DNA of 64,000 bases from Paramacrobiotus metropolitanus (Eukaryota > Tardigrada > Eutardigrada > Parachela > Macrobiotidae), in contig NW_026570441.1 in assembly GCF_019649055.1 (NCBI RefSeq), positions 1-64,000 of the forward strand. The letters are read 5' to 3'. The notes under the pieces were generated by a model. It ran no database searches. It was given only the letters and a program-made list of their open reading frames with translations, and was not told the origin of the DNA. A program made the position numbers and the translations under genes. The first letter of the stretch is position 1; each line of letters begins with the position of its first letter. This document shows positions 11,498-33,136 of the stretch, piece after piece.

Positions 11498-11703
11498 CTG
11501 AAACTTAAACACTGAAAACAACAAAAACACGAATGGCATGACATTTTTAATACGTGACGACCTTCCGCCCTGATACATTACCGTTAACACCCTTCTTCAT
11601 GTTGCCGACTGATGGCCGTAACAACATGTGCGGTTGATGACCCGAAAGGTCATCACTGCTCATTTGAGTCGTTATCGCGATTCCGTCGACGCCAGTTACT
11701 TCG

Positions 11704-12273
11704 CTAATTGCGGTCTGACGTCCAGTCTCGGGGTTCTTCAAGTTCCCCTTCTTGACTTTCCTCTTCACTCTCGTGACCTTTCTGGGCACTGTTACGTCCG
11801 CTGCGGTCTCGACGGCGTCGCACACGCTCGATCCTTTCTCGAGCGTCTTCCATTTGCTTCTCCAGTCTGCGACTCAGCGGATTATCGACGTTACGTTGAA
11901 ACGCTTCTTGGTATTCCTCGTTCAACCGTTGATTTCTACGGCCACGTCGACCCGGTCCATCACTTGGCATCCTCATAGCCAGTTCTGGTCGAAAGCTCTT
12001 CTTATCGACACTGATCTCCTTGATGAAATCGTATACGAAATCCGCAGGTTGGTTGAACCCTGTCCCCATCGTCTGACGGATTCGCTCTGCGCAGCGGTGA
12101 AAGTCCAGTTCGAACTGACGTTTCAGTTGTTCGTTATTCATTGCGATTTGATAATCCCGCAGCTGGCGCTTTGCCGTTTCGGAACAATTGATGTTCGCGA
12201 CGGGTTGTCCCAGCTTCGTCGCCTGGGCGATGAGCGGAGCAGGTATGAGTCCTGCTTGCAGATCCCTTCTTAA
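11704..12273 (-). pseudogene. element 1 accessory: C-terminal continuation of the zinc-ribbon protein
   Basis: Translation beyond the TAA gives APLIAQATKLGQPVANI, which aligns with element 3 SALATIVAQLGSPMRSII. The ORF 11704-12141 then has FVYDFIKEISVDKKSF, comparable to element 3 FVSWYREKKHLPAGF. It ends in an acidic or basic low-complexity tail depending on frame. The overlapping 92-residue ORF 11547-11825 may be a shifted tail or a shadow. Confidence 0.5.
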
Positions 12274-14346
12274 TTAGTGGTGCGTCTGATAATGGCCAAG
12301 TCGTGCCGCCAAAATCTTTTGGACCGTAATTCGGTGTTCGAATGACGAGTGTTCATCGACTTCAAGCCCCATCGCAGCCCTTCCTGCGAGAAGTCTCAGC
12401 GCCGGGTTCGTATGACGCAGGACAAACTGAGCCAAATGCAGTCTCCTTTCCTTGATATCTCGATAACAGAACTGAGTCATTCCAGTCGGATCAGGTGTAT
12501 CAAGCGGAGTTTCTAGCAGACTAAGGTCAATCAAACTGACGAGTCCACATTCTCGCATCGGGAAGTAGTGGAGATTCGCCGAAGCCTGCGTTATAATCAG
12601 GTCTTCCCACTGGCCGTATTCATATTCTTCCGCTTGACTTGAATCCAATAGGACTTGTCTCACATTGAAGAGTAGGGTGTATATCTTTTTCGAATCCTCA
12701 GAGTTTCTTTCGACTCCCAGTGTACGGGTAATTTCGTCGACTTGCTGCTGGATATCTGTCATGTCATACACCAATTCGATAGTTTTCAATGACGGTTGCC
12801 GTTGAATGCGGCTTTGCACTTCGCTTCCTCCTTGACCTTTCTCCCCATCGTTTGGCGGTGCGTTACTCGCCACTGATAAGTTTGACAAGTCCCGATCTAG
12901 GTCAAATATGATGTTCCGCCTTGACTCCGGCATTTCTTCCCCTACGGGAACTTCGATGACCTTTGGCGATGAGCCACATTCCATCGGTTCTTCCGGACGC
13001 TTTTCAGCCGACTTGAATTTTGAAGCTACGACAAAAACTGTGGATTGTAACCTGCGAGGGCTCTTCGGAGTTCGAGCGCGGTGACTTTCCGAGCTTGATG
13101 ACCTTTTGCTGTTGTACGTATTATCTCCAAATTCATAATCCTCCATATGTAGGTTATCTTGAACCCAAGCTTCTTCAAACGGGCTCCTCTTTGAACTGCC
13201 GGAGCTTCCACTTTGACCTTCCTTATACTGACCACGAGGTTGCGTGTCACGACTTTTCGACCCAGCGTGCCCCTTGCTCTGCTGGTTACTGATCTCATCG
13301 TTGATCTTTTTATACTCTTCTGCAATGCGTTTCTCTTTTGCTTCTTTGCGACACTTTTCCCTTTCGTCTCGTTCACGACGAATGCGTTCGTCATCCTTTC
13401 TCTTCTGTTCAGCAGAACGCGTGTCTTTGACGTGTCCTCGATCTCGATCATAGCGATCAAAATCCCGTGACCTTTCACGAGAACGATCTAATGACCTTTC
13501 ATGTCCTCGTGACCTTTGATCTCTGTCGGCTGCCCTTCCTAAGTCCGACTCATATCTGCTCCTTTCAGGTGATTTCGATCGTTTAAATTCATCTCTCTTG
13601 AAGTTTCTGAACGCTTGAGTTACTTCGTTCTCCTGCGCTCGGAATTGGCGCATTCTCTCAATCCGTTCTTCGACCGCAATCTTGATCACCTGTGATGGCG
13701 GATTTCCCTTCGTTAGGCTGACCTTTTCCCGTAGGTAGACTGCATATTCGTTTTTGGAAATGGCGACTGGATCCGCTAGGATGATATCGATCTGCTGTAT
13801 CAGGGACTGTCTGAGTACGGCTGCTTCCTCACCATCCTGTCTCTTAAGAACTGCCACAGGAATGAATGAGGCTTTTGCCCTTCCTGCTGCAGCCTTTGCT
13901 TCTGCTCGTTTCTTCTCTTCTTCGCGTTGAGCCTGTACCATTCTCGCAGTCTCTTCTTTGAAGCCCTTTCGGTATGCGTCTGTTTCCGCGCATTTGGGAG
14001 GTTCCAACGTGGCGTCCCATCCGGCTCTTTTGTTCACCCAAGAGCGGTACTTATCCTCGAGGATCATTCTATCCTCCACGGGCACTCTGTTCCAGTTATT
14101 TCCTCTGATTGCCCCGCGAAACACAGCAAGATTCCCCCTTTTTGATTCTTGTATCACGAGCTGTGCGAAGGTCGGCATCTTTGATATGCATGTCCAGCAT
14201 GGATATCGCTCGTTGCCTACGGCGTTGTTCCGCTTACAATGCGGACAATTCTCGTTGTAGTTCGTTATCGGGTCTCCCGTTGGTACGTCCTTCTTCTGAT
14301 CCTGACCCTTCCTAGTTGGTTGACCCCGTTCGGCCATTTTCGTCAT
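12274..14346 (-). CDS. element 1 accessory: zinc-ribbon and Arg-rich protein (690 aa)
   Basis: Near the N-terminus is CPHCKRNNAVGNERYPCWTC, a C-x2-C-x13-C-x2-C zinc ribbon or knuckle. About residues 270-370 are RS/RD-rich (SRERSRDFDRYDRDRGHVKD) and very basic, like an RNA-binding region. The C-terminal 200 residues look folded (TDIQQQVDEITRTLGVERN onward) and end LAARLGHYQTHH with a TAA. Homology to element 3 (AQFV...LFAARLGNYHCHF) shows that the protein once continued past this stop into 11704-12273. No known family is recognised. Confidence 0.6.
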   Translation of the reverse strand: MTKMAERGQPTRKGQDQKKDVPTGDPITNYNENCPHCKRNNAVGNERYPCWTCISKMPTFAQLVIQESKRGNLAVFRGAIRGNNWNRVPVEDRMILEDKYRSWVNKRAGWDATLEPPKCAETDAYRKGFKEETARMVQAQREEEKKRAEAKAAAGRAKASFIPVAVLKRQDGEEAAVLRQSLIQQIDIILADPVAISKNEYAVYLREKVSLTKGNPPSQVIKIAVEERIERMRQFRAQENEVTQAFRNFKRDEFKRSKSPERSRYESDLGRAADRDQRSRGHERSLDRSRERSRDFDRYDRDRGHVKDTRSAEQKRKDDERIRRERDEREKCRKEAKEKRIAEEYKKINDEISNQQSKGHAGSKSRDTQPRGQYKEGQSGSSGSSKRSPFEEAWVQDNLHMEDYEFGDNTYNSKRSSSSESHRARTPKSPRRLQSTVFVVASKFKSAEKRPEEPMECGSSPKVIEVPVGEEMPESRRNIIFDLDRDLSNLSVASNAPPNDGEKGQGGSEVQSRIQRQPSLKTIELVYDMTDIQQQVDEITRTLGVERNSEDSKKIYTLLFNVRQVLLDSSQAEEYEYGQWEDLIITQASANLHYFPMRECGLVSLIDLSLLETPLDTPDPTGMTQFCYRDIKERRLHLAQFVLRHTNPALRLLAGRAAMGLEVDEHSSFEHRITVQKILAARLGHYQTHH

Positions 14347-14695
14347 TCAACCTGTAATCTGAACATCATAATTCCTACGACCTTTCAAAGATACCCTTTC
14401 TTGAACGCCTATTTTACGCCTAAGTTAACTAGACTATTGTGGTGCTGAGCTGAGGCTTTCTCGCTGTTTTCCATGATGACCTTTGTCATCCTTATTTGAC
14501 TGAACCATTTTCAACTGTATGGGTGACCTTTCCCATCTTAGCCCGTTCGCTAAGTACTTTAGCCCCTTCGCTAATTCTACTCTTCTTGCAGAGTGTGGTT
14601 CGAAAGTAAGTCACGCTCTGCGTATTCATTCTCATTTCTGATTCTGATTCTTCATCTTGTGTGGTGGACCTTCCTCCCACACTACACTTTCTCTT
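14347..14695 (-). other. gap between accessory ORFs with a hairpin repeat
   Basis: No convincing ORF. The stretch carries three TGACCTT-type motifs and one copy of the GCAGAG...CTCTGC hairpin (14588-14621) that elsewhere lies in coding sequence. Confidence 0.4.
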
Positions 14696-15877
14696 TTAAG
14701 CTTTTGCGATCCAGTCAGAACGATCGATTCCGTTTCTCTTCCACGTTCTGATTTTTCCGTCTTTAACAAGACTATCCAGTGCGTTCTGGACCTTGAATCG
14801 ATCGCCGTTCATGTTTTCTTGACCAGAGTCATATTGAACTGCCATGTAGTTGGACACGTCTTCTTGAGTGAACCCGTTAGTGCCACCGATATTCTGCAAG
14901 GCATCTTTGATAAGGGCGTCTTTCCATGCTTGAGGACCCGGCTTCGGTCTTTGCTTTCGTTGGTCCTCCGCTGGGGGAATGTAGTGGATCGGAACATTCG
15001 TATCAGTGTATTTTACACCGATTCTCCCTTCCTTATATGCCCTCTTTATGATCTTGTTAACTTGTGTCCTGCTGACTCCCGCGTCGCTAACTGCCTTAGC
15101 GATGTTCGTCTTATCCATTTGTCTCGCCGGAGCTGCACCAATCGCGGCGTAAATCGTCATCCACGGAACATTGCTTTCGTCGAGGTCATCGACACTCATG
15201 TAAGCTGGTTTGCCGCCGATGATTTCCTCTTCCAACAATTCGAAAGGCTGTTCTTTTTCTTCCTTCAGTGATGGCTGCACTAGCTGTGACTTAACCGTCT
15301 TCTCTTGGCTTGGGCTCGGGTGACCTTCCCCCCCCCCGGCTGAACTTTGCGCTGAAGTCTGATGACCTTTGACCGTTTCTTCCACAATGTGACCTTTCGC
15401 CTCGTCTTCGCCTTGCGTCCTTTTTTCGTGCGCAACTTTCAACGGTGTCAATGGTGTTGTGGATTGGTGGATCTTTTGAATTTCCGCTAATGAACCGGGT
15501 CCACCGCTTGCCCTTTGACTTCTTACTGCCGCAAGTGCTTCTGGTACCGACATCGGTTTCGGCGGTCCAACCAACGCAATCGCTTCTTCGGCTGATTTCG
15601 GCGCGTGCAGTTTCGGTTTGCCCTTCTCGACCGTTTCTGCTTCTTTTTCTTCGACCACCTCTTCTTCGACAACCATCGGTTCCTCTTCTTGTTCTTCTTT
15701 CTCTTTCTGTGATGAGGTTGCTGCTTGACCACTATTTAATTTGATCTGACTCAAGATGGGCCTCTCCACATCGAGTCTCGGATCCAATATCTTAGTGGTA
15801 TCTTCGCTCGTTTCCTCTTTCTGGTAAGTTCTCAGTTCTTCGGGTACCGCATTCAGGGAGCTGTATCTGATGGTCAC
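14696..15877 (-). CDS. element 1 accessory: protein with two winged-helix-like domains (393 aa)
   Basis: The N-terminal 215 residues are disordered and acidic with KGH units from the AAAGGTCA motif. Residues about 245-305 (DKTNIAKAVSDAGVS, then VNKIIKRAYKEGRIG and PIHYIP) have the helix-turn-helix plus wing pattern of a winged helix and resemble the spacing of Z-alpha domains. The Tyr and Trp of the Z-DNA contact set are replaced. Residues about 325-393 (DALIKDALQNIGGTNGFTQ, then KVQNALDSLVKDGKIRTWKR) look like a second winged helix, closer to linker-histone type. The likely role is nucleic-acid binding. The printed start is a GTG, so the true frame joins the upstream ORF. Confidence 0.55.
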   Translation of the reverse strand: MTIRYSSLNAVPEELRTYQKEETSEDTTKILDPRLDVERPILSQIKLNSGQAATSSQKEKEEQEEEPMVVEEEVVEEKEAETVEKGKPKLHAPKSAEEAIALVGPPKPMSVPEALAAVRSQRASGGPGSLAEIQKIHQSTTPLTPLKVAHEKRTQGEDEAKGHIVEETVKGHQTSAQSSAGGGEGHPSPSQEKTVKSQLVQPSLKEEKEQPFELLEEEIIGGKPAYMSVDDLDESNVPWMTIYAAIGAAPARQMDKTNIAKAVSDAGVSRTQVNKIIKRAYKEGRIGVKYTDTNVPIHYIPPAEDQRKQRPKPGPQAWKDALIKDALQNIGGTNGFTQEDVSNYMAVQYDSGQENMNGDRFKVQNALDSLVKDGKIRTWKRNGIDRSDWIAKA

Positions 15878-17039
15878 ACCTTTGTGAGGATTTGTTGTGT
15901 GGAGCTTCCTTCCGCAACCATCTGGGTTAATGATTTTCCGAGTGACCTTTCGATGACTGAAGCATTTCCCTTCTCTTTGCTCCAGACTCCGTTAATGAAC
16001 TGCGCCATGCGGTGTTTCGCCGTACCCATCGGACTGCACATCCCGATGATGGCGCGTTCAATTCGTTCTCGGATATCCGCGTTCGCTGTAGCCAACTTTG
16101 GTTTGTTATTGTTCCCTGTGATCTACAGCTTCGCCTTGGAGCCATATTTAGGATGTTTCTGGAGGACTTTCCCCGTGCTCCTTGCATATTCCAGAACGGC
16201 ATTATATTTGCTCTGTGGCAATCTTTTATTTTTCTCTGCGCAATATTCTTTCACGTCCTTTCTGAACTTCGACGTGACTGATCTGGTCGCTTTTCCCCAG
16301 TCCGCTGTCGCTCCGATGAGGATTTCATCTACTTCCTCTATCGTTGTTTCGTCGTTCATTTCGCAGACGAAGAAGCGATCGTCATATTCATCGTCCGTGT
16401 AATCCATTTCGCTGTCCCCTTCGGCAGGTTTCCAATTCACGGTGTCAGCTGCATCGACTCTCCCGATGAGACTGTTCTTTGGTGGTGCTTTCTGTTTCTT
16501 TTGCGCATCCATATAATCTGCCAAGCTAGGGTCAGGTTTCCTTGTATCTTTTTGACCTTTCTTTTTCGTGTCCTTCTGTTTTATCGATGACCTTGACGAT
16601 GCAATGCTAACTTCTGATTTCGCCGATTCATCTGAAGTATCCCTTCTCTTCTTCTCTCTTTCCGTCTTCTCTTTACGTTTTTTCATGGTGGATGCGTAAA
16701 TCGGCTGCATCGACATTGCTTCTTCCATCACGTTATGTGATTGACCTTTCTCTTTCTCGTCTTCAGTCTCAACTTGTGATGAACCAGGTTTAACGCTGAT
16801 AGACAATTGTTCTGGCTCAGAATCCGACTCGGGTTTCTCTCTTTTCTTTTCCATAACTCCCAGTAGTTTCGGCTGTTTGACGAAAGTTTTACCGACGCTA
16901 CCTTCTCGTGCCGTACTTTTTGCTGGTTTCGTTTTCGTCTTCTTATCTTCGTCTCTTCGACATCTTTCGCATTTGGGATCCTGGCACGAATGTGCCGGGA
17001 CTTCTCCTGCGACTATGGCTTTAACCCGTTCAGCGCTTC
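15874..17039 (-). pseudogene. element 1 accessory: basic charged protein
   Basis: The frame is open from the end of the tandem-module protein. It has a possible zinc cluster (HSCQDPKCERC) and a highly charged Ser/Lys/Glu region starting MEKKREKPESDSEPEQ at 16854. A better ordered segment near 16300 includes FVCEMNDETTIEEVDEILIG. A TAG at about 16123 is in frame with the continuation (ADIRERIERAIIGMCSPMG). No known family is recognised. It runs into the winged-helix ORF by a frameshift near 15877. Confidence 0.45.
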
Positions 17040-18707
17040 TTACGGGAGTCGGATGTTCTTCCTTCTTGACCTCCCGTTCGTCCGGTCTTTCCTTAGTCTC
17101 TTGACCTTTTGATTTTTTGTTCTCTCTTCTGTCTCAACTTTTTCAGGCTGACCCTTCTCAGCCGGTTTCTTGACCTTTTTCGCTCCTGACAGTTTGGTCA
17201 GCGTTTCACCGGTTGCGGTGTAGAGTTGCTTATACACTTCTCCATGGAAAGGGTCGATATGTGTCAGGCGCATATATGCCCGGTCCTGGCGTGCTCTTGG
17301 CATCATGACGTTGACCAACACTTCGGCTATCGCTTCGAATTCTTCGCGTTCTTCCTCTTGCGGCAGGACCTGCAGTACTTCCTCGACCTCCTGCATGAGT
17401 TTTGGGGTTTCTTCTTCTTCCTCTTCTGGGGTGAAGCCTGCATTTGACACCATTTGTCCCGTCTGAGGATCGACCGCTTCGATTCTGAGGATCCCTTCTC
17501 TGCCTTCTTGGTTCATGAATTTGTAGTCGATTCGTCTACATGGCGATCTTCGATCGATTTCTTCCTGTGTTTCCATGGCTTCTGCTTGGACCGGCTGCTG
17601 ACCGCTATAAACGCGACGTGACCTTCCTCCGTCGGGTGAATTTGATGATTTTCCGGAAAGTAAAGTCCTTGACCTTTAGAATCGAAGAGTGATTTCCACT
17701 TCCCTTGATCATCTTTCCAGAAGATTACGATGTGGGCATTATCTTCTTCGGCTCTGTGTCTGAGCATGCTCATCACCGTTCTGATGTTCGCGTTGACATC
17801 ATTCCTCTGCTCTTCCGGAAGGAGATTCAGCATCTTCTGGAGATCGCTGTACAATTTCTGGGTTTACCATTCGATTTCCTGTGGAGTCGCATTCGTTCCT
17901 GCGCTCGGAATTGGCAACATCGTCTTTGGGTCAATGATGTAGCCGTAGACGTATCCCTCATCTCCGTCCGCCATGTGGTAGTTGACCTTTAGGCATCTGC
18001 ACACTGTTTCTCTGTACGGAGGGTTCTCGTCTCCTGAGTCTTCTTGCCCTTCTCCTGATTCTTCCGTCTCGTTCCCCTTCGCACCTGACGCCGGGTATGC
18101 TCCGTGTGAAAGCATATCGATCTTTTCTCCTTGTGAATTATAGAGTTGCTTCTCTATCTTGCCCTTTGCGTCCACCGTAACCATAATGTTCCTCTTTTCT
18201 TTAAACGCTGTATCTCTCAGCAGATCCCTAAGGACTCTTCCTATCATGGTCGGATTATTCTGCTCCGATTTGAAGAGTTCGCCGATAGCTTGATCTGCCG
18301 CATCGCTGGCTTCCTTTACACATCACTTGGTACGTTGCTTGATCGGCTCCTTCTCCCATTGACGGAATAGGTTCATCTGTGTCTCTGTGAACCAGGAATG
18401 CGCTAACTATTCCTTCTGTTTTATCCTTGCAACGGAAAACTCTGGTATGCGATCTGCATTTTGTTTCGCGAGCTACGCCCCTTCGCGTGCTCCCTCCAGG
18501 ATGATCTTCCGGTATCTCTTTCTGACCGGTGTGACCTTCCTCCGCCGGGTGTTGACCTTTAACTTCTTTCTGTTTTGGTCGACTATCTCTTGCCGGGCTA
18601 GCACATGACAATCCTGACTGTACCACTGATGTCGTGCGAGACCTCAATTCCATGATTTCTCTGTCGAGTTTATCTCTTTCTCTCAACAGTCTTTCTCGAG
18701 TTACCAA
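17040..18707 (-). pseudogene. element 1 accessory: three tandem copies of an unknown module
   Basis: Four ORF pieces (18255-18707, 17864-18247, 17513-17854, 17040-17576) form one broken reading frame; the TAA at 17864 is in frame with the next piece. Three related modules can be aligned by eye. Each has a part like GYVYGYIIDPKTMLPIPSAG and, about 60-100 residues later, a part like NIMVTVDAKGKIEKQLYNSQ. The counterparts are FLVHRDTDEPIPSMG, then IVIFWKDDQGKWKSLFDSKG, then RIEAVDPQTGQMVSNAG with MRLTHIDPFHGEVYKQLYTA. The predicted pattern is beta-hairpin rich. Function is unknown. Confidence 0.55.
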
Positions 18708-18850
18708 TGGATCACTCGGAGGCTGAAACGGGTCATTCCTCGTTTTCTTGGCCGTGTGCTCTTCCGTAGTGGGGCTTTCTTCGGCCGGAGTTTTGACTCC
18801 TCTTTCCTGTTCTTGTTCTTTCGGTTCAGGAGGAATCAGGTTGAGGAAGA

Positions 18851-19852
18851 TCAGTATCGTCTTGATTGCGCTTGGCCATCCCTGTTGCGCAACACTGGAT
18901 TACTGTTCCTCAGTGTCCTGATCTCGACACCCCTTTCTTTTCTCAACCCTTCAGCTTCATGTTTGTCCAGCTTCATATGAAGGTGGGTCCCCCTAGTTAT
19001 CTTGTGACTTCTTCGGGCCGTCCTGTATTGCGCTTGATTCTCGTTGACGTCGTTATGAAGTTGGACGAATTCGCGACATTTTTCGTTGAATTCTGCTACG
19101 GCCTTCTTTTCTTCCTCTGTGAGGGTGACCTTTGGATCCATAATAATGTTGTACTGCGGATCCGTTTCCGTGATCGGGTCGTAGAATCTAGGTGCGTTGA
19201 GCACTGCCCACGGAATACTTCCAGTCGATCTTGGTGAGTGAATTCGCACTGGTGTGAGTGATGGGATCTCCATTCTCGTTCCCTGACCGCCCGATGATGC
19301 TCTCGGGGTAAACGGCTGACCGCCCCTTCGCGGTGTGTTCTGCCTGTTTCCCGGGAAACGTTGCCCCCTTGTCAGTTTCGGGGTCTGAAATTGCCCTTGG
19401 CCTTGCTGCGGGTTGAATCCCTGCATCTGATTTGGGAATCATTGCATCTGGTTCGGAAATGGGGCCATTCCGCCATATCCGAACTGACCTGGATTCATCA
19501 TCGGCATGTTTTGGCCATACATCTGTTGTGGGAATTGCTGGAATGGGAAATTCTGTCCCATCATCCCTTGATTCGGCATCATCTGGTTAGGCATCATCTG
19601 GTTCGGCATCATCTGGTTCGGCATCATTTGCCCTTGGGGCCCGACTTGCGCGCCGTAAGTCCCCCACGTATTTGAGCTCATTCCCACATCGGTTTGTTGA
19701 TACGTAGTAGACGGGTCGTATCCCCCTTCATAACCATACGTTCCTTCCGTATTCATTGAATCGTCGTATAAGTCCGGGTCTTGAATCGTTCCGCTCGTGG
19801 ATGACGGCGTTCCCGGATTCCAATATGATCGGTTAGGATCTTGGCCTTCCAT
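18851..19852 (-). pseudogene. element 1 accessory: Met/Gln/Pro-rich protein
   Basis: The first ORF after integrase starts MEGQDPNRSYWNPGTPSS. It contains a 4-unit MMPNQ repeat (15-bp units) and a QFPQQMYGQNMPMM stretch. A TGA at 19439-19441 interrupts it, but the same frame continues (FPNQMQGFNPQQGQGQFQ) to 18851. The second part has a charged segment with TLTEEEKKAVAEFNEKCREF. The prion-like composition suggests a disordered, possibly RNP-forming protein. No homologue is recognised, and elements 2 and 4 lack the region. Confidence 0.5.
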
Positions 19853-19866
19853 TCTTCGACTTATCG

Positions 19867-22131: not shown

Positions 22132-22194
22132 TCTGTTGACCTTTATCTTGGTAGCAGAGCGGGGTTCGAAAGTAAGGCGGCGACTACGCTCTGC

Positions 22195-23784
22195 TTAATT
22201 TATGCTTGAACGTGGATCTTTAATTTCTGGCTCTTCCGACATAACCTTTCTCATGTCGGCTCTTAGCCTTTCTTCCCTTTCTTCGGCTAATTGTACGAAG
22301 AGTTGCCAAACTTCAATTGGCGGTTCTTCTCTGTTGAGTTCGTTCTTGTAATCTTCGAAGTTTGGGATTTCGTCATACTCTTCTTCGTTACAAGTGGGAC
22401 CTTCGATTGGCGCTCTTGAAAGGGCGTCTGCGTTGTCGCAGTATTTGCCCGGCTTGTATTCGATCTTGAATCGGTGACCTTGAAGTGCCAATGCCCGTCT
22501 TGTTAATCGGGGATTCATGCATGACTTGTTCGACTCCGACCTTAGAAGATTCGTCAGTGCTTTATGATCCGTTCTCACTGTGAATTCGGAGTAGTCGATA
22601 CATGACTTGAACTTTCTGACGGCGAACATTACCGCCAGACATTCCCATTCCGTTACTCCGTAATTCTTTTCAGCTCCATGCAAAACGCGGCTTGCGTATG
22701 CGATGGGATGTCCTTCTTGGGACAGGATCGCACCTAGCCCTTCCTTCGATGCGTCGCACTCGATCCACTGTCGGCCTTGTTGGATCGAACTTCTTTAGTA
22801 CTGGATCCTTGCATAGTGCTTATTTTAGGTCATTGAATTCTTGGTCATGGATCGCTGACCAATTTCTTTTGATATTCTTTTCGTGTCTCAGCAATTCGTA
22901 CAAATGCGCCGTCTTTTGCGCGTATCCAAGGATGAACTTTCTGTTATAGTTCGCTAATCCTAGGAATGACCTCAACTGCCGTTCAGTTGTCGGTTTCTTT
23001 TGGCCGTCAACTGCCATGACCTTTTCGGGATCCATCCTGATACCATTCTCACTGAGGATGTGCCCAGGAATCCCATTTCGCGCATGCCGAATTCGCATTT
23101 CGTCGGCTTAATTGTGAAGCCTGCGTCAATCAAACGTTGAAGGACATTCCTCAGGTTCTGCATGAAGATCTCCCAGGTCTTCCCTGCGAAGATCACGTCA
23201 TCAATGTAGCCGAAAACGCAACCCATTCGCTTTGCGTTCGACAGGACTTTATCCATGCAAATTTGAAAGGTCGCAGGTCCATTGCAGACTCCAAAAGGCA
23301 TTCTTTTGAATCGGAACATTCCGTCCTGCGTGACGAAAGTCGTCTCATCTTTCGAGGCTGGGTCCATTGGGATCTGCCAGAAGCCACTTTGCAAGTCCAT
23401 TTTGCCGTAATATTTGTTTCCCGCGCATGCGTCAAGCAGTTCATCCGGGTTCGGCAGTGGATAGTTATTCTCTTTCGTCAGCTTGTTCAACAAAATGTAG
23501 TTGACACAAAATCTTGTTGCCATAGTTCCGTCGCCATTCTTCTTTGCTGCCAATACGACCGGGAAACTCCATTCCGCATCGGATGGTTCAATGACATCTT
23601 GCTGTAACATCTGTTTGATGTGCTTCGTGATGAATTCGCGACCTTTCCAGCTCGTTCTTGCCGGATTGCATTTGACTGGTTTTGCGTCGGCTTTGGCAAT
23701 GGTGTGCGTTACCCCTTCGACATCGCCGTACGGTTGCTTTGACGTGGGAAGAACTTTCCAAAACTCCCAAAATGCATTTCGCAC
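22195..23784 (-). pseudogene. pol: element 1 reverse transcriptase and RNase H
   Basis: RT motifs are clear: FPVVLAAKKNGDG, motif A KMDLQSGFWQIPMD, RMPFGVCNGPATFQ and catalytic YIDDV at about 23195-23209. The connection (LGLANYNRKFI) follows in the ORF 22820-23098. RNase H (22195-22683) includes EWECLAVMFAVRKF and TVRTDHKAL. Frameshifts lie near 23085 and about 22780, so the protein is not continuous. The enzyme would copy the genomic RNA. The family is Ty3/gypsy by motif spelling and by the downstream integrase. Confidence 0.85.
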
Positions 23785-23817
23785 GTCATTTTTCTGTTCT
23801 TCAGTTAGGTCTGGTCC

Positions 23818-24943
23818 TTACTTTAATCTTTCAATGATGTCATTCAGTTCTTCTTTTGTCTTTTCATCCACTTCAGGATCTTCGAGTATGTTTTTCACGA
23901 CGGCAGCCGAGTTGACCTTTACATTCTCTAGGTGTTCGTAATGTTCTACGTAACCGAGAAATTGGCCCTTCCTTACGGTCTTTCGGCTTTTGCTTCGGTT
24001 CTCTATAACGATTTCAAACCGTGTGCCGTTATGGTCCGTTACTCCCGTTCTCGGTCGGACTTCATTATCCTTTTGGGGGGTCGCTGCATACATCAGCTTC
24101 TGATTCCGCGGTACATGAACTCCCATCTTGACCTTTACGCGCGTTGCCAAGTTTGGTCTTAACTTGACTCGCTGATCGCTGTAAATCTTGATCGCCCCTT
24201 CTGGGATTCTTGCTCTCTGCACTTTAATTCTTCGAACAATGATCTCTTTCTCTTGTTCTTCATTCTTTTCATCGTCTTCGTCAAGGTCCAGCAGATCTTC
24301 TTGATCAGAAAGGTCACTCACTCCCGAATCTTCAGAAGTGGTCGAGTTATCGCTCGTACTCGAGAATTCCGAATCGGATTCGCTGCTATTAATTGCTTCA
24401 AGCGCTTGACCTTTGCTCCTTTTTTCGACAGGTCGCTCATCGACGCCTTCATCTTCGCTTCCCGTCGAAAGGTCATCATCTTTATCCTTGGAAGCGCTTA
24501 GTTTTTTCGTTTTTCGGGCAGAGGTTTGTCCGTTTCCTTGGACTTTCGTCCGTTTCGTGCAGTATCCTTGGATTTGTTCTTGTTGCGCGAATCCTCGCTC
24601 GTGACCTATCCCTTTCCTCGTCTTCCGAGCTATCAACTGCTTGAGCGGTATTCGGTGACCTTTCTGCTTTTTCAACTGGTGGCCCTTCCTCACCAGTTTC
24701 GGGTGACCTTTCGTCGACTTTCGGAACTGACCTTTCTGGCTCTTTTTCTTCCAGCATCGAGCTTAGTGACCTTTCGTTCTTCTCGGTTGGTGGCCGTTCC
24801 TCACCATTGCCGAGTGACCTTCGCAAAGATCCCACTAACGCTGCTGCCTTTTTCTCTTTCGGAGACATTTGAGCCTTTTTTGCCTCTGTTACCGGGATTC
24901 CGTTTTCCTTGTCCCGAATCGCTTGGTTTAGTTCCTTAATCAT
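23818..24943 (-). pseudogene. pol: element 1 linker and pre-RT beta-barrel region
   Basis: Two overlapping frames (24482-24943 and 23818-24693) show a frameshift near 24.6 kb. The first part is acidic and Ser-rich (STTSEDSGVSDLSDQEDLL). The second (IKIYSDQRVKLRPNLATRVKVKM through TVRKGQFLGYVEHYE) resembles the small dUTPase-like barrel that often precedes RT in Ty3/gypsy pol. It ends just before the RT frame at 23784. Element 2 has the homologous sequence at 43081-43869. Confidence 0.55.
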
Positions 24944-25041
24944 CTGAGCCAGCTCATACGCTGTGTGCGTAGGTTCTTCTTCTTCGGCGCCTGTGCCGTT
25001 TTCTTGTGCAGCGCTTGTGCTGACTTCTTGTTCTTTTTCTT

Positions 25042-26484
25042 TTATTTCTTCGGCGCTTGTGCCGTTCTCTTGTGCAGCGCTTGTGCTGACTTCTTGTTCT
25101 TTTTCTTTTCTTTTTCAGCACTTGTGCCGTGACCTTTAGGTCTCTTATCACCGATAAAGACGCAGTTAGCCATCAACTCTTCTGTGCTCCAGTCGTCACT
25201 CGGTATTGTCTCGTACATGCACCAAGTATCCCCGCCTCGTTCGGGATACTCTACACCATCCGGATCTGGTGCAAAGGTCGCCTTCTTCTTTCCTGGATAA
25301 CCGAATAATCCAAGTTCGCGTCTTTTTCTCGTGACCTTTAGCTCTGGTATTTCTCCCGTGAATATCGGTACTTCTTCATGGGTTTTTCTCCATTGTTTAT
25401 TCCATGGCCTTAAATTTCCTTTCTTTAGGCAGGCCTGGTAAAAGTCAAATAGCTCGCACCCCGGTGTGCCGAGTCCATTTGGGAAAATGACTGTTCTTCC
25501 TTGACCTTTCCATAGGTAATTGACTCTGAATTCCCAGAATAAGTCGACCCTTGCTTGCTCCCATATTTCATTTTCTTCTCTAGCTCGTCGCCTTTCTCTG
25601 TCGAGCTTTGTGATCGGGTTGTTGTACCATGGGTCGCTTTTATCCGCTTTATCGGGAATAAAGTTGTCAGCTTCTTGCTGCCAATGATGGAGCCACTTTC
25701 CTCTGGAGGTGATGTAGTTCTTGACTACCGATAACCATTTTCGATAACATTGCCAGAGGTAAGTTGCTTTTGGCAACTCTGGCATGGGAAGTGTCCTCAC
25801 GATTGATTTGACCTCTTTATCTTCTTGTCTTTTATGACGTGCGATTGCCGCATTGCATTTCGGCCATTCCGAAAGGTGATCTTGCGTCATTTCTTGCATG
25901 CATTTTGCACATCTTTCTTGAGGTCGCGCTATTGAAAGGTCATCGCTGTCGTGCCAATCGTGATTGCAAGAGGTTGCTCTCTCTTCCTCCGTCCATTCTC
26001 TTGGTCTACGGTAGACGACGCGGTTGTCTCCTTCCGGCATCCGTTCTCTCGGTTTGGGGCGGACGATAGCACGATTATTCGCTTCTCCGGAGTCGGTATC
26101 TGTCCATTCATCTTCCCTTTCAATTTCGATTACGCTATCTCCTGAGGATACCTCAATAACTTTGATTTCTTCATCTGCAGAGCGTGGTTCGGAAGTAAGA
26201 CGACGACTATTCTCTGCTACCTTTTTGCGCAGGCGCGTGTCTCGACCTTTAACCCGCTCTCTTGCTTTGTTACGCTTTTCATCAGCAGTGCGTGGTTCGA
26301 AAGTATGCTGAGAACCATGTTCTGCTTTCTTCGTATCCAGTTGCTTTCTGGCCTGGTCTCGTATGTCCGAGAATAATGCTCTTTCGTCGCTATTCATCAG
26401 TCCAGGGTCTTTCCTGGGCCCAACCATTCTCGTGCCCAGTGCCTCTGGTACTGGGATTAGCCTTGACCACTCCAATCCAGGCAC
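25042..26484 (-). CDS. element 1 conserved domain of unknown function between protease and RT (480 aa)
   Basis: This ORF has no family I can name. It starts with low-complexity sequence containing LIPVPEALG and two AE-xxxxx-FEPRS-like units. A Cys/His cluster (CNHDWHDS, then ERCAKCMQEMTQDHLSEWPKC) could bind zinc. A long well conserved part follows: KNYITSRGKWLHHWQQ, WEFRVNYLWKGQGRTVIFP, GLGTP, VTRKRR, TFAPDPDGVEYPERGGDTW, CMYETIPSDDW and TEELMANCVFIGDKRPKG. The same blocks in the same order occur in element 2. Such a domain is not standard in gypsy pol. Strong conservation of Trp, Gly, Asp and Pro suggests a folded protein. Confidence 0.65.
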   Translation of the reverse strand: MPGLEWSRLIPVPEALGTRMVGPRKDPGLMNSDERALFSDIRDQARKQLDTKKAEHGSQHTFEPRTADEKRNKARERVKGRDTRLRKKVAENSRRLTSEPRSADEEIKVIEVSSGDSVIEIEREDEWTDTDSGEANNRAIVRPKPRERMPEGDNRVVYRRPREWTEEERATSCNHDWHDSDDLSIARPQERCAKCMQEMTQDHLSEWPKCNAAIARHKRQEDKEVKSIVRTLPMPELPKATYLWQCYRKWLSVVKNYITSRGKWLHHWQQEADNFIPDKADKSDPWYNNPITKLDRERRRAREENEIWEQARVDLFWEFRVNYLWKGQGRTVIFPNGLGTPGCELFDFYQACLKKGNLRPWNKQWRKTHEEVPIFTGEIPELKVTRKRRELGLFGYPGKKKATFAPDPDGVEYPERGGDTWCMYETIPSDDWSTEELMANCVFIGDKRPKGHGTSAEKEKKKNKKSAQALHKRTAQAPKK

Positions 26485-27110
26485 TAGCGACTATTTCTTT
26501 GCAATCAGCGCTTTTGCTTGCATTATCTTGATCTGTTCTATCGTTGGTGACCTTTGTTTTCCTTATGACTTCGGTGACCTTTTGCTTCTTCTTTAATCCC
26601 TGTGCCTCTGGTACTGGGATTAGCTCTTCGCCATTCTCATTTTGCTTCTTATCATTCGATCCCTGTGCCTCTGGTACTGTGATAGCCGTTTGCCCCGAAT
26701 CATTTCTTGGTTGAAGTTCGGTGACCTTTCCTGCATTGACTTTTGCAGAGGATTTCGGCTCATCATCTTCAGCTTCAGTTTTTCGTTCTTCCTCGTCATC
26801 CCCGTCTATCAAGATAAATTTCTTTGCGAGGAAGTCGAATCCCAGTAGGACTTGGACCTCGTCTGATGCAGGTCTCACGTAAAACGAGTGTTGGATCGTT
26901 TTCCTTCTTGAAGTCACTGGTGCTACGCAGTAGTGCGTTACTTCGAAACCTGACGTTCCACTGATCCCTATGATCATCACCTTCTTTTTTGGTGTAGTCT
27001 TACAGTCTTGAGGCCATTCCTCTCACAGAACTGTAGACAAATCAAAGACGTCTCTGCGCCAGTGTCAAGCATTGCCATGACCTTTTTGTTTACAATTTTG
27101 ACTTCGTGTG
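26390..27110 (-). pseudogene. pol: element 1 aspartic protease
   Basis: The sense strand encodes KVMAMLDTGAETSLI with the catalytic DTG at about 27058-27066. HSFYVRPASDEVQVLLGFDFLAKKF gives the second conserved ILG-like strand. A stop after the DTG part and a change of frame separate it from the ORF 26390-26980. The protease would cut the Gag-Pol precursor. The C-terminal part carries the repeated peptide PVPEA. Element 2 has a better preserved copy. Confidence 0.7.
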
Positions 27111-29162
27111 TGTAAGCTTCGATCCGTTTCGGTAAGTACCTTTCGTGCTCCAACGATCTATCCGTTTCGGTACGTCGGGTCGCACGCCTGAAAACTTTTC
27201 GATCCCCTTTGACTTCGGTAAGACGTTTGTCTGCTCCTTCGCAGCGGTCTCTTTACTTGTGACCTTTGCTACTTCGCACATTAACCCCTTCTCTTGTGCG
27301 TTCTCGTGACCTTTTATCACTTGCGCAATAACTTCGTATTGTGACCTTTCATTGCGCACGTCTTTGGACGGCTTTTCTTGCAATTTTGCCATTATCTCTT
27401 GCGTAATTTCATCTGCAAGGGTCATCTCGTCATCTTCTCCCTTTTTCAATTCTTCTGGTGACCTTTCATACACAACCATCTTATGGTCGTTTTCTTTCAT
27501 CCATTCTGTAATCTTCTTCGCAACTTCATTATTGGTGCGAGTTGGATCAATCTGAGATGACATTCCGTCAGTTCTGGGCGGTGACCTTTCGATGTCATTC
27601 CGGATTGCTTCAGTCATGTCATATGACTTCTCCTTCTGCGGAGTTTGCGCTAAGTCCGGTGACCTTTTCGATTTAGACATGAAAAATCCGCCATTCGGTG
27701 ACCTTTGTAAAGGTACTTTCTCACCATATTGAGGCGGTAATTCACCCTTCTCAACCCGCTCTCGAAACTGACGGTTATTTTCGTCACATTGGACTTTCTC
27801 TTTCCAGTACTCTTGTACTTTCGGTTGTGAAGCTTTTACTTGTTCCTCGAGATGCTTTCTCATTCACCAATCTTGTTTCTCTCTTTCTTCCCAGTAAGCT
27901 TCTCTGGAAATTCTCACATCTTGCGGTGACCTTTGTGGCGGAGGAAATGGTTTCCATATACCGTGCTGTCCATTCGGCCTGTAAGCGACTTTTTGCCACT
28001 GCATCTTTTGCTGTAGAGTGTTTGCCTCATCGAGAGAGTCACCTGAGACTTGCTGTGCCCCTTCGCTCTGTTTCACTGTTCGCTGCGCCATTCGCCGAGT
28101 CAAGTTACTTTCTTGACCTTTTGGTTCATCGGCGACTTCACCGTGACCTTTCTCTTTCAGTGACTTTTGAGTCTGTTGCACTGGCTGTCCCTCGTGACCT
28201 TTCACTTCTTCATCTCCCTCTTGAGGTGACCCTCCAGCCTCTTGCGCTCCTTGCGCAGCCACGGCCCTTCCGTGACCTTTCTCAGCAACTCTTGCTTGAG
28301 ATACTTTCGACATCTGCTCAAGAAATTTCGGTGTATCTGGACCGTCTCCGTGCGTTCGTTGCACCGTTACGGTCATTCCGTCAACTTCAAACGCCTTTTC
28401 GACAAACTTTCGGAATCTTGCGTGATGTGTCTCATCATCTTCTTCTTCCGAAGATCCTGCTTTCAGCCTTGCTACTGCATTCGCGAAGAGTTTCTTTCTC
28501 CTCGTCGTTAAACTCTCCGCTTGTTGCGGTGACCTTTCGGTCTGCTGTCCTCGCAGCGTAACGTTACTTTCGTGACCTTTCCTTGCAGTTACTTTCTGCG
28601 GTGACCTTTGGGTCTGCTGTCCTTGCAGCGTCACGTTACTATTGTGACATCTTTGATTTGCAGTTACTTTCTGCTGTCCCGGATGCAGAGTTGAGGCCCT
28701 TCCATCAGCCCTGTTGCCCGCAGTTACTTTCTGCGGTGACCTTTCGGTCAGCCCCGGCTGCACTTGTTGCAGCGTCACGTTACTTTCGTGACCTTTGGTT
28801 GCAGTTACTTTCTGCTGGTCCGGATGCAGATGTTGATGCCCTTCCATCAGCCCTGTTGCCCGCAGTTACTTTCTGCGGTGACCTTTGGGTCAGCCCGGGT
28901 TGAGTCAAGTTACTTTCTTGACTTTCCGCAGTTGCTTTCTGCGGTGACCTTTCAGTCAAACTCTTCCGTCCTTGCGGCAATCTTTTTAAACCCTTCTCTT
29001 GACCTTTGCGAGCCCCTTCGCTCGATTTCGAGTTACTTTCTCGAATCCTCGGATTTCTTTTCCGGGTCTTTGCGTTACTTTCGCAGCATCCGTTTCTCGC
29101 TGCGGTCCTTGCCTCCAGCGGAGCACATTGCTCCTCTATATCCGGTGGTTTCGGTTCCGGAC
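27090..29162 (-). pseudogene. pol: element 1 pol N-terminal spacer rich in KGH/ERS/KVT peptides
   Basis: Three ORFs (28780-28980, 27864-28847 and 27090-27863) make up a broken, low-complexity region between gag and protease. The 27864 stop is a TGA in frame with the next ORF. The protein is built of units such as TERSPQKVTA and ARKGHESNVTL. All three peptide types are the same nucleotide motif GAAAGGTCAC read in different frames. A better conserved stretch (WQKVAYRPNGQHGIWKP, RSPNGGFFMSKSKRS) matches element 2. There is no known catalytic domain. It may be an unstructured linker kept for its nucleic-acid content. Confidence 0.6.
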
Positions 29163-29192
29163 GATCAGTAGGCTCACCGGCGTCTACTGGCC
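29163..29192 (-). promoter_or_regulatory. hairpin on the gag stop codon, element 1
   Basis: GATCAGTAGGC and GTCTACTGGCC can pair around an 8-nt loop, with one mismatch and two wobbles. The gag TAG is within the stem. Element 2 has a perfect 11-bp version at the same place. The pol frame (EPTDRPEPKP) opens in the -1 frame here, so this may promote recoding between gag and pol. Confidence 0.55.
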
Positions 29193-30890
29193 TTGTACGT
29201 TTCCTTGGACCATCCCCTGCACCGGCGCACCTTGCGCCTGACCGGCACCATTCGCCGGGGCGAAGTTTAATCCTCAGCCTGGCTGACCGAAACCGTTCTG
29301 GTTTCCACCGACGAAGCCGCCTTCCTGCCCGCCGTAATCGCCCTGGCCACCTTGACCGGCGAAGTTGCCCTGGCCACCTTGACCGGCAAAATTCTGGCCA
29401 CCTTGACCACCGTTATTCCACTGGCCTCCTTGACCACCACCATTCCATTGGCCACCTTGACCAGCACCATTCCATTGGCCACCTTGACCACCGCCATTGT
29501 TCCATTGGCCGCCGCCATAATTGCCGCGATTGCCGCCACGGCCACGGCCTCTTCCTCGGAAGCCTCCGCGAGCCGGGCCGTATCCACCGTTTCCTCCGCC
29601 TTGGCCACCTTGACCAGCGAAGTTACCTTGGCCTCCGGCGAAGTTTCCTTGGCCACCTTGACCACCGCCGAAGTTTCCTTGGCCGCCGAAATTACCCTGG
29701 CCACCTTGACCCCCATTGTTCCACTGGCCACCTTGACCAGCGAAGTTCCCTTGGCCACCTTGACCAGCATACCGTCCGCCTTGGCGTGATTGTGGCACGT
29801 ATCCATTTGCCATCGCATTGCGCCATCCGCCGTGATTGTTGCGCAGCATCAGCCATTCTTCGTATACAACCCGATTGGGGATTTGATTCCACGGTGTTCC
29901 CGCGAATGAGCACGCTTGCGTGTGGTGATTGCCGTACATGCAATTCTGGCATGTCAGAGCATTATTTGCAGCCCATCCGTCAATCATGGTGAACAGGCGC
30001 TCTACCCGCGACCCGCATCGTGGTCCTTGATTTCCTTGTCCACGGTTTGGTCGGAAATTTCCTTGGTTTCCTCCGCCGCCGTTGAATACCTGGCCGGTAA
30101 AGCCCGGATTCGCCTGAGCCATTCCTTGACCACCGAGCCCTCCATTCAGGGCATTCCCTTGACTGTTCCTTTGCGGGTTTTGCGCTGGCCGGGCCGTCTG
30201 CTGGGCTGACGCCTGGATCGCTGCAATCGCGGGCTTGGTCACTTCTTGAACCGCCGTCTGTATCGCCGCGATCGTCGCGTACGATATCTGGCCTTTATTC
30301 CGTTCGTTGCCAAAGGTCACCTCTTGAGTGCCTAAGGGCGGGAATTCCGTATTATATCTTAGCATCTGTGCCGAACACGACTGGTTTTGTCGCCCATTCG
30401 CGACTTCTTCGATCTGACCGGACCGAACGATGACGCAGTCGTCTTGAGTCCGGTTGCCTCTCGTGACCTTATACTTTTCTTTGCCAGTCGACCATGTGCG
30501 GAAGAATTCCTTGATGTCCATTGGGTTATGGAATTTCTGTGCTCGAAGTGCCTTATAAAGGTCACCATCGTTCTTACATCCTTGAATCAAAAATCCGATG
30601 GCCTGCTTCTCTGTTATGATCCGTTTCGACTTGAAGCGCATGATCGCCTGATAGAACTGGTCAAGCGTTTCCTTGCCAGCTTCGAATTTTCTTGTCATGG
30701 CTTCTCTTAAGGCGTTGACCCCTTCGTCACGATCGCCAAATTGTTCCTTGAACTTTGTCATCCATTCATCGACGGTTAGTTCTTCCGCCTCTTCTTCATC
30801 ATCAATTTCTCTTTCCGCATCAAACTGCGTTGGCTACTTCTAGCATCATTGCTGCATCGGAAAGGTCATACGTTTTTGAGTCTCTTTGAC
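29184..30890 (-). pseudogene. gag: element 1 gag: capsid, CCHC knuckle, Gly/Gln-rich tail
   Basis: The main ORF (29274-30761) contains a Ty3-type capsid segment (FGDRDEGVNALREAMTRKF, then QFYQAIMRFKSKRIITEKQA). A zinc knuckle CQNCMYGNHHTQAC (C-x2-C-x4-H-x4-C) follows. A long tail of GGQGGQWN, FGG and RGRGRGRGG repeats is probably RNA-binding. The N-terminus (TYDLSDAAMMLEVANA) lies upstream to about 30890 but is separated by a frameshift and small deletion near 30830-30860, judged against element 2. A TGA at 29274-29276 interrupts the tail, after which the frame runs on to TAG at 29184-29186 inside a conserved hairpin. The antisense ORFs over the Gly-rich tail are composition artefacts. Confidence 0.8.
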
Positions 30891-33136
30891 TTGACGGATC
30901 CAGCCGAGTAAGGCTTCTCGGACTTTCGAGACATTGTTCTCATAATTCCCCTAAATTCTTGTTCTTCTCGGCGTAATCGCTGTGCTTCGGCCTGATATTC
31001 GGCGCGATGTTCCCTCTCGCGCCGTTCCTCTTCTCGAGAAACCCTTTCATGCTCGTGGATGCGTGCTCGTACATCGTCATCCTCTTGAGTCTCTTTTCGG
31101 TGTTGCTTCGAATTACCGTCAAAGGTCATTTCGTCCGTTTTGGACGGTCCACTAAAGAGTGGACCCGAGTGCCCCTTCACTTGCTCGGTTGACCTTTTTT
31201 CGCTCTCCGTTTTGACGGGTTCTGTGCCTTGTCCATTTCCAGTTCCTGTTCGCTCAGGTATTTGGAATCTGCTACTGAACTGCTGAGTATGGATTGTGCC
31301 ATATCCGGGTGGTGGTGAATCCACCCTAGCCGTTTCATCCTTTTTGTAACGGCTCAGCTGTTCATCTTTATGTCTCAGCGAGTTGTTGAGTGCGTTGTTT
31401 TGGTCCTCAAATCTCTTATTCTTTTCTGAAAGGTCATCTCGCTCCTTTTTCAGGCTGTCATTCTCTGCCTTGACCTTTGACATCTGTCCGTGAAACTGGA
31501 GGGTTCGATCATTCTCTTGTTTTTCATACACCTCTTTATCTTCTTTGAGCTTCTCCAGTTGACCTTTCAGCGTGGTAATTTCATCATCTCTCGTCATTAC
31601 CAACGTTGTCATTTCCAGCAGGTCACTTACTAATTTCGCCATGTCTTGTTTCTGTTTATTGATCAGGACTTGCCCTTCTCTGTTTCCGACCTCAAGCACC
31701 GTGACCCGTTCGTCAATTCGTTGTGCTTCGGTCAACCATTTGTGTGTATCTGCTTTATGACCTTTGATTTCATCGTTCAATCGTTTGATTTCCTTTTTTG
31801 CGTCTTCCACAATCTCGTGAAACTTTAATGATACTTGGTCTCTCTGTGTCTCTGCTTCACCCTGTTTCTTTCTTCTTTCTTTCAGTTCCATTCGTAACTT
31901 TTGATTCTCGTCTTCGTACTTCTTAAGGTCATCCTTCAGTTTTGTAATGTCTGTTGTCAGACTGGTGACCTTTCCTGTGATCTTGGTCGCATTGGCCAGA
32001 CATTCGTCACGTTGAGTTTCAGCTTCCTGAACTTTTTGTCTCAAAAGGTCACACTCGTTTTTCAATTCTGCTATCTCTTGTGACCTTTCTTCCGATTCTT
32101 CGGAAAGACCGTATTCTTCTGCGGTGAGAACTCCTTCCGTTTCTCTTTCTTCGTCCCTTTTCTTGAGCTCCTCCACAGACTGTTTCTGAGCTTCATATCT
32201 GACCTTCCATTGTTGCGCTTCCTCTTCGAGCGTGACCTTTTCTTGTTCCATCACGTAAAGTCTTGCTTCAACTTCAATGGTTTTGTTCCGTTGTTCTCGG
32301 ACTGCAGCGAATGCTTGCCCCTCTATTTCATCAAATAGCAGCTCGAGGTCCTTCACACGCTGCTTCAATCCATTTAAAACGGAAGTTTTTGGTGATGGTG
32401 ACCTCTGATCTCGGTCGTCGGCCCTTCCTGACGCCGTTCCTTCAAAGGTCTCTTCCGACTTTTCGTGGAAGGTCGTTTTCATCATCTCTTTCATTACATT
32501 AGCTTCCTTCATTGCCGTGTGAAAAGACATCTGCATTGTCGTCTCATCCTCATCGTCAGTGTAAAACTTTTCACTTGACGCGGGGCTGGTACCATTTTCT
32601 TCCAGCTGTTCTTTTGAGAACAATGGGTTGTCCCAAAGGTCATCTTGTTTGACCTTTTCTTCGTTAAACGGCTCATTGCTGTTGACGACGCCACCTCCTT
32701 CGATGACCTTTTGACTGGCTTCGTCATTTCCCTTCTCGGCTTGATCTGCGTTTTCCTCTTTGACTTTCTCGGCCGACCGTGTCATTCCTCTGGTCTCGGC
32801 CTTCAGGTCATCTTCATTCTGTCCATCTGCGGCCCTTCTCACATCGGTGACCTTTGACGAGTTTACCGTGTTATCTCCGGCATGTCGCCTGGAGCTTCCT
32901 TCGTTTCCGTCACTCGAGCTCTCGTTCTGGGTTTCCCTCAGAGCCGTTTGATATGTGGCGTCTGAGCCTCTGGTGTCCTTCCTCTCAAAGGCCAGTTGAG
33001 CTCGAGTTGCTCGTTCATGAGTCACCGGCCGTGTGTACGGCTTCAGTTTCACTTCGTAAGGGTATTCCAGCCCCCGAGACCGTTTTCTCTGACTGCCCGA
33101 TGAGACCGGTTCATTACCGTCTGTGTCTTTATCCAT
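30866..33136 (-). CDS. element 1 ORF1: long coiled-coil protein (756 aa)
   Basis: The ORF starts MDKDTDGNEPVSSGSQRKRS, a start supported by the homologous MDKDKEQPTSTGSQ of element 2. Residues 1-250 are polar and low in complexity. About 260-620 is heptad-rich sequence dense in Glu, Lys, Gln and Leu, a long coiled coil. The tail is basic with the cluster REEERREREHRAEYQAEAQR. There are no membrane segments. Gypsy elements rarely carry a separate ORF ahead of gag; a structural or RNP role is a guess. Its 3' end overlaps the gag N-terminus in another frame. Nucleotide motifs AAAGGTCA/TGACCTTT pepper the gene. It is one of the few intact frames in the element. Confidence 0.7.
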   Translation of the reverse strand: MDKDTDGNEPVSSGSQRKRSRGLEYPYEVKLKPYTRPVTHERATRAQLAFERKDTRGSDATYQTALRETQNESSSDGNEGSSRRHAGDNTVNSSKVTDVRRAADGQNEDDLKAETRGMTRSAEKVKEENADQAEKGNDEASQKVIEGGGVVNSNEPFNEEKVKQDDLWDNPLFSKEQLEENGTSPASSEKFYTDDEDETTMQMSFHTAMKEANVMKEMMKTTFHEKSEETFEGTASGRADDRDQRSPSPKTSVLNGLKQRVKDLELLFDEIEGQAFAAVREQRNKTIEVEARLYVMEQEKVTLEEEAQQWKVRYEAQKQSVEELKKRDEERETEGVLTAEEYGLSEESEERSQEIAELKNECDLLRQKVQEAETQRDECLANATKITGKVTSLTTDITKLKDDLKKYEDENQKLRMELKERRKKQGEAETQRDQVSLKFHEIVEDAKKEIKRLNDEIKGHKADTHKWLTEAQRIDERVTVLEVGNREGQVLINKQKQDMAKLVSDLLEMTTLVMTRDDEITTLKGQLEKLKEDKEVYEKQENDRTLQFHGQMSKVKAENDSLKKERDDLSEKNKRFEDQNNALNNSLRHKDEQLSRYKKDETARVDSPPPGYGTIHTQQFSSRFQIPERTGTGNGQGTEPVKTESEKRSTEQVKGHSGPLFSGPSKTDEMTFDGNSKQHRKETQEDDDVRARIHEHERVSREEERREREHRAEYQAEAQRLRREEQEFRGIMRTMSRKSEKPYSAGSVKSKRLKNV

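Follow-up and report, generated by a model that had tools for sequence, protein, structure and literature searches.

The first 64,000 nucleotides of contig NW_026570441.1 of the tardigrade Paramacrobiotus metropolitanus (referred to here as the window) contain two related long terminal repeat (LTR) retroelements on the minus strand, a long element 1 and a shorter element 2, both saturated with one 8-bp word, AAAGGTCA. Counted on both strands, this word occurs 147 times in the window, compared to a mean of 3.24 and a maximum of 7 in 100 dinucleotide shuffles. Only one site in the window (at 9435) lies outside the two elements. The word is kept under strong selection at the level of the nucleic acid, is nearly all-or-none between clades of this kind of element, and might serve as a docking site for a nuclear receptor of the host. 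The features of the locus are the following (open reading frame, ORF):

9975..34815, minus strand: element 1, LTR retroelement of about 24.8 kb with terminal repeats and reverse transcriptase, RNase H, and integrase domains
34476..34815, minus strand: 5' LTR of element 1 (direct terminal repeats 97% identical)
34459..34475, minus strand: primer-binding-site-like TGGTAGCAAGAGTCGTG with TGG at its start, adjoining the 5' LTR (read from the sequence)
33255..33553, minus strand: five reversed sites (sense TGACCTTTA) clustered in the 5' leader, upstream of the TATA-like box
33212-33217: TATA-like box of element 1, about 40 bases below the leader cluster
30866..33205, minus strand: ORF1, coiled-coil-like (by eye and from a weak sub-cutoff Pfam match), 10 sense sites
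29274..30833, minus strand: Gag-like ORF with a glycine/glutamine-rich tail and no sense sites (assigned from position and make-up)
27090..29007, minus strand: densest coding stretch of sites, from site counts
22972..23817, minus strand: reverse transcriptase domain RVT_1
22195..22794, minus strand: RNase H domain
19867..22194, minus strand: integrase ORF (H2C2 zinc finger, rve core)
14696..15991, minus strand: ORF with a linker-histone-like domain, in a region unaligned in the 18.7-kb siblings
10531..11652, minus strand: 3' untranslated region with five reversed sites
9975..10310, minus strand: 3' LTR of element 1 (97% identical to the 5' LTR)
41906..53286, minus strand: element 2, related shorter LTR element of 11.4 kb
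41906-42168 and 53024-53286: LTRs of element 2, 98% identical
51692..52005, minus strand: six reversed sites clustered in the 5' leader of element 2

Element 1 is classed as a Ty3/gypsy-type LTR element. Its domains follow the order reverse transcriptase, RNase H, integrase on the minus strand, its ORFs continue beyond the integrase, and the nearest integrase relatives are P. metropolitanus proteins. Among the matches listed (40 scored of 86 candidates), its LTR was found at at least 40 genomic places, including the two in the window. The frames of the window copy are broken up, and other copies have longer open frames at this locus. A Pfam scan of 20 ORFs (18 of element 1 and two of element 2) revealed only weak sub-cutoff matches besides the reverse transcriptase, RNase H, integrase, and linker-histone domains. 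When the flanks were read by eye, neither a polypurine tract before the 3' LTR nor a clear target-site duplication was recognised.

Motif number and density

The original prediction, made from the letters of the window, had counted about 82 TGACCTT and about 15 AAGGTCA on the plus strand at 11640-32860; the recount gave 82 and 16. The chance figure of one to two given there was slightly low, as the first-order expectation amounts to 3.1 (AAGGTCA, the sense being the minus strand). The density peak placed at 27.2-29.0 kb was recovered, with the 1-kb bins at 27 and 28 kb ranking highest (9 and 11 TGACCTT, respectively). A short repeated word does saturate this block, although the conserved unit is the 8-mer AAAGGTCA and not the proposed 10-mer GAAAGGTCAC, the full form of which occurs 24 times at 11640-32860 (22 minus, 2 plus), and the carrier element extends further, from 9975 to 34815.

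Element 1 contains 93 sites (71 sense, 22 reversed), nearly 80 of them within its ORFs (68 sense and 11 reversed), and element 2 contains 53 (39 sense, 14 reversed). Genome-wide, 42,562 copies of AAAGGTCA were counted against 15,522 of the same word read backward, which serves as a rough background; by the same measure, GTGACCTTTC reached 6,277 versus 599 and TAAAGGTCAC 4,785 versus 932. No clear helical period was found in the site positions, and exclusion between neighbouring sites was weak and varied from set to set (P 0.007 to 0.38 across five element sets).

Selection on the nucleic acid

The synonymous codons of 20 ORFs were shuffled within each ORF with the protein held fixed. The sense motif occurs 72 times in these ORFs (68 distinct sites, the ORFs partly overlapping), compared to a mean of 10.6 and a maximum of 17 after shuffling, so that this control, proposed with the original prediction, does not reproduce the density. 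The reversed motif occurs 11 times versus 0.57. As had been claimed, all three frames are used (25, 24, and 23 sites).

Furthermore, seven sibling copies were aligned piecewise, and conservation inside and outside the motif was compared on the same alignments; the siblings are interrelated, and the cases are not independent. The motif was identical in 81.8% of the aligned cases (347/424) and the reversed motif in 85.4% (117/137), whereas any 8-mer was identical in 35.4% and anagrams of the motif in 36.7% (1965/5349). At four-fold degenerate sites, 399 of 411 bases (97%) were kept within the motif and 65 of 67 within the reversed motif, as opposed to 9136 of 12245 (75%) outside. The conservation profile is 0.79 at the base before the motif, 0.95-1.00 across the eight bases and 0.89 at the base after, a step that spans exactly 8 bp; offset +11 from the motif start is likewise well conserved (0.96). 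Motif positions are also kept in the untranslated ends: each of the five reversed leader sites of element 1 was found in 5 to 7 of the seven siblings, and four of the five 3' sites in 5 or 6 of the six aligned siblings, the site at 10751 being kept in none. Codon shuffles, sibling identity, and four-fold sites thus bear out the claim that selection acts on the nucleic acid and not on the peptide, and neither of the two refuting outcomes named with the original prediction (a similar count after codon shuffling, loss of the motif in sibling copies) was observed.

The sites also persist between the two elements. Aligned 8-mers match exactly between the two in only 9.5% of cases, whereas element 2 retains 11 of the 12 sense and 4 of the 6 reversed sites of element 1, and element 1 retains 11 of the 14 sense and 4 of the 7 reversed sites of element 2; the alignments were picked by BLAST, which mildly favours kept words. 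Substitution accounted for 77 of 104 motif gains and 47 of 77 losses. The insertion of motif-bearing pieces was therefore rejected as the source of the sites.

A functionless repetition of codons or peptides, or a copying process, would account for the local tandem duplicates at about 28.5-28.9 kb and for the common frame shared by 30 of 44 close site pairs. The codon-shuffle excess, the four-fold conservation, the predominance of substitutions among the gains, and the persistence of sites between elements that are 70% similar all speak against it. Local duplication and peptide repeats were accordingly rejected as the cause, and repetition without function is in the main refuted by the sibling comparison; we regard it as hardly credible.

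Clades with and without the motif

Searching the genome with the integrase yielded 2172 candidates, 58 of which were scored and ten fetched. Eight of the ten (L055-58, L060, L061, L063, and L064; clades A and B) bear the motif, and two (L059 and L062; clade C) are free of it. Sites fall in 16 alignment columns, six of which are shared by A and B. The 10-kb stretches L065 and L066, round L059 and L062, contain no site, and a further 10-kb clade C stretch, L054, contains two. On the leader side of clade C, no site was found in the 7 kb of L070; L069 has three within its 10 kb, each of them 2.5 kb or more past the ORF1 match and probably outside the element. The one clade D integrase copy analysed (L071) has none in 2.2 kb. 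The motif is thus nearly all-or-none between clades of one element kind, a finding that goes beyond the original prediction.

The motif-free copies are relatives with homologous genes. From ORF1 to the integrase, 10 of 12 element 1 ORFs are matched in clade C L065 and L069, with 88% identity in the reverse transcriptase and 72% in the integrase (65% and 63% in L066 and L054). The longest clade C frames comprise 2828 and 2982 codons. Both clade C copies with a fetched leader side lack the leader cluster and the body sites together, which suggests a single factor reading both leader and body.

Such a factor could be a sequence-specific DNA-binding protein encoded by the element itself, acting in the condensation of chromatin or cDNA or in the integration complex. 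The distribution of sites over the whole element, their joint absence in one clade, and the encoded linker-histone-like domain are consistent with this. The region of the linker-histone ORF was, however, not found in the 18.7-kb siblings, which are nevertheless saturated, and no obvious reader gene is missing up to the integrase in the motif-free L065 and L069. Together with the weak Pfam matches elsewhere in the 20 ORFs, this makes an element-encoded reader rather unlikely.

The best tree joined clades B and C (92/100). Because the groupings A+B and A+C were not rejected (approximately unbiased test, p 0.15 and 0.14), and a larger tree was no clearer, the phylogeny does not separate a gain of the motif in A and B from a loss in C. 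No replacement motif emerged in clade C: none of its 6- to 8-mers stood out in conservation as AAAGGTCA does, and the top-ranking words came from one repeated stretch. GAGCTGA/CAGCTCA-type words, of the (C/G)AGCTGA type, are repeated 6 to 9 times on the 5' leader side in L069 and L070. In L054, CAGCTGA was counted 15 times on both strands versus 1.6 expected.

Candidate binding protein

The original prediction had equated AAAGGTCA with the NBRE, and the match is exact: PMC4777543 gives this word as the NBRE, the site bound by NR4A monomers, and the sharp 8-bp step in conservation coincides with it. The host has a gene for such a receptor. Among 63 zf-C4 matches in the genome (several per gene), 28 loci bearing some of them were fetched, and the NR4A gene was located at C45:296.7-299.4 kb. 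Its first finger has the P-box CEGCKG, the best solved match of its second finger is NGFI-B (1cit, 2.2e-21), and the next exon encodes an A-box, RRGRLPTKPK; the A-box is the part that reads the leading A bases of the site. Both zinc fingers and the A-box are hence present in the gene. A 2026 study of tardigrade C4 zinc-finger proteins covers P. metropolitanus; in the part of its main text that was covered, the name NR4A is absent (PMC12941274).

We give an even chance to the reading that AAAGGTCA is a cis-acting double-stranded DNA site under selection at which host NR4A (HR38-type), or another protein with similar specificity, docks. What is shown is strong selection for the DNA word within the element. 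The host protein would dock on this word, and the leader cluster (5 to 13 sites) could then act as a promoter, enhancer, or insulator that drives or insulates transcription. The body sites may keep the 25-kb integrated copy occupied, accessible, and active, or may coat the DNA copy.

The use of both orientations in coding DNA, with reversed sites as well conserved as sense ones, is in line with this, as is the predominance of TAAAGGTCACTT among 41 sites free of coding constraint. In the integrase coding DNA of clade B (seven related loci, not independent), the sense form was counted 34 times versus 1.69 expected and the reversed form 14 times versus 0.69, about 20-fold each. This excess of both forms in coding sequence favours double-stranded DNA over sense RNA as the substrate. 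The original prediction had listed an RNA packaging signal among its options, and one of the usual kind is not supported: besides the enrichment of both orientations, there is no flanking hairpin, and the sites are not unusually single-stranded. No hairpin with compensatory changes was found in the flanks of AAAGGTCA, the CAATA hairpins described below serving as a positive control. A single-stranded RNA-binding site was rejected as well, as the sites are not more accessible in local folds.

Other host nuclear receptors might occupy the sites instead of NR4A. HNF4, RXR, FTZ-F1, and ERR type receptors share the AGGTCA half-site, and exons of such receptors are present in the host (translations read by eye; NR4A alone was checked against solved structures). 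On the other hand, no second half-site was found at a fixed distance in the flanks of AAAGGTCA. FTZ-F1 and ERR sites favour C before AAGGTCA, whereas A precedes it here, the C-preceded CAAGGTCA being rare (17 versus 347 AAAGGTCA). A receptor of this other group is quite unlikely to be the binder. Among variants of the site, those with a changed first base are raised in motif-bearing elements (T 9.0-fold, G 6.6, C 5.7), as are those with A replaced by G at the third or last base (3.6 each), while AAAGATCA is depleted (0.28).

Several observations weigh against docking of NR4A. The related clade C persists without the motif, and the many other host nuclear receptors among the 63 zf-C4 matches read related half-sites. 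The variants GAAGGTCA, AAAGGTCG, and AAAGTTCA are raised in clade C also, and the spectrum of tolerated variants is only weakly diagnostic, the pooled copies being related. Sites in the untranslated ends point one way in 41 of 41 cases: the ratio of reversed to sense sites is 10:0 in element 1, 6:0 in the leader of element 2, and 25:0 in two clade B stretches (one of these sites lying just inside an open frame). The seven sibling leaders contain 46 reversed and four sense sites, the latter one each in siblings C17, C9, C29, and C414, and the 3' ends of six of the seven copies contain 35 reversed and no sense sites. Such one-way ends are not expected of a docking site that works alike in either direction.

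Much of this orientation can be put down to duplication in tandem and to common ancestry. In the two clade B leaders there are 11 and 13 sites, each set within about 540 bp, and many of them are 28-31 bases apart. As they sit in diverged tandem units, much of the orientation may have been inherited by duplication. Eight clade A leaders hold 5 to 8 sites. A TATA-like box is missing from one of these two clade B stretches.

The main rival to NR4A docking fits the orientation pattern better. The reversed sites of the leader and the 3' end, together with some within ORFs, might pair with sense sites in the body and thereby compact the 25-kb genomic RNA for packaging. Both orientations are conserved, the ends are almost only reversed while the body is mostly sense, and a fixed 8-bp core with free flanks would suit interchangeable partners. 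In local folds, moreover, the unpaired fraction of sense sites is 0.47, versus 0.52 for random placement (p 0.007) and 0.61 for anagrams. The tolerance at the first base is accommodated less well, since the variants include T and C, beyond a wobble change. Base composition already accounts for the excess of sense over reversed sites in the coding sequence of element 1. The flanks of the end sites (ACTT on the AAAGGTCA strand) differ from those of the body sites, and four of the seven sibling leaders have one sense site. Weighing these points, we consider RNA pairing unlikely.

Other features of the window

The window contains twelve copies of CCCAATAG(G) on the plus strand at 38569-41488, with flanks mirrored round a CAATA loop (stems of 3, 7, 4, 1, 5, 5, 6, 6, 6, 3, 6, and 5 pairs). 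With their constant loop and varying stem, they resemble RNA-hairpin-like signals. Genome-wide, GCCCAATAGG was counted 498 times versus 277 for the word read backward. Among the matches listed, it clusters 2-12 kb 3' of six clade D integrase matches (three on C1 and one each on C4, C17, and C23); single hits lie 5' of some clade D matches, and other clusters are near no listed match.

Beyond the 3' LTR of element 1, the stretch 9800-9974 resembles a reverse transcriptase fragment by eye, and element 1 seems to be inserted in another element. Its 3' region has three 73-nt copies in 175-nt steps at 11071-11493, and repeats spaced 27 nt at 29323-29793 encode a GGQGGQWN-type tail on the Gag-like ORF. 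The peptide AE-x5-(T/I)FEPR(S/T) recurs on the minus strand in or before the integrase region (20235, 20496, 22170, and 26301) and possibly marks polyprotein cleavage sites. An inverted repeat at 59375-59796 encloses CTGTAGACA/TGTCTACAG. No Rfam family and no tRNA was found in the window.

Comparison with known systems and significance

Among the closest known systems is Drosophila gypsy, a Ty3/gypsy-type element whose 5' untranslated region carries about a dozen protein-binding sites in a tight array. In PMC2374998, 12 Su(Hw) sites in 340 bp are described for gypsy, comparable to the 11 and 13 sites in about 540 bp each of the clade B leaders, whereas the core here is TGACCTTT and not the TGCATA core of Su(Hw). 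The sites here also fill the coding region, and an insulator role would be an analogy. An NBRE usually occurs as one or a few sites in an enhancer; the 8-mer here is identical, and an NR4A gene is present in the host, but one element carries 93 sites, and binding is predicted. In yeast, Ty1 and Ty2 have some of their sites within coding sequence. Retroelements such as Ty1 are acted on by transcription factors of the host (PMC10968565), although in that case several factors have their own sites and no single site runs through all ORFs. The distributed packaging signals of RNA viruses are likewise short elements repeated through a coding genome, with stem-loops in the sense RNA; here the stem is absent and both strands are used.

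Host-factor sites in retroelements are known, usually as a handful in the LTR or leader. In these elements, selection maintains one 8-bp word at about four per kb across the ORFs; every frame and both orientations are used, even though this restricts codon choice. A title-level literature search found no report of comparable motif saturation in a retroelement. Paramacrobiotus is not mentioned in the part covered of a curated study of repeats in two other tardigrades (PMC11071193).

Because the motif-free related clade with its homologous genes provides a built-in control, the role of a transcription-factor site within the coding sequence of a mobile element is directly testable. More speculatively, and with a small chance in our estimate, the clades might each carry their own distributed cis-code, read by a factor of its own and marking self: the NR4A-type word in A and B, none found in C, and CAATA hairpins in or near D. 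If this were true, the host genome would have gained roughly 27,000 NBREs through the code of clades A and B, enough to reshape its NR4A network.

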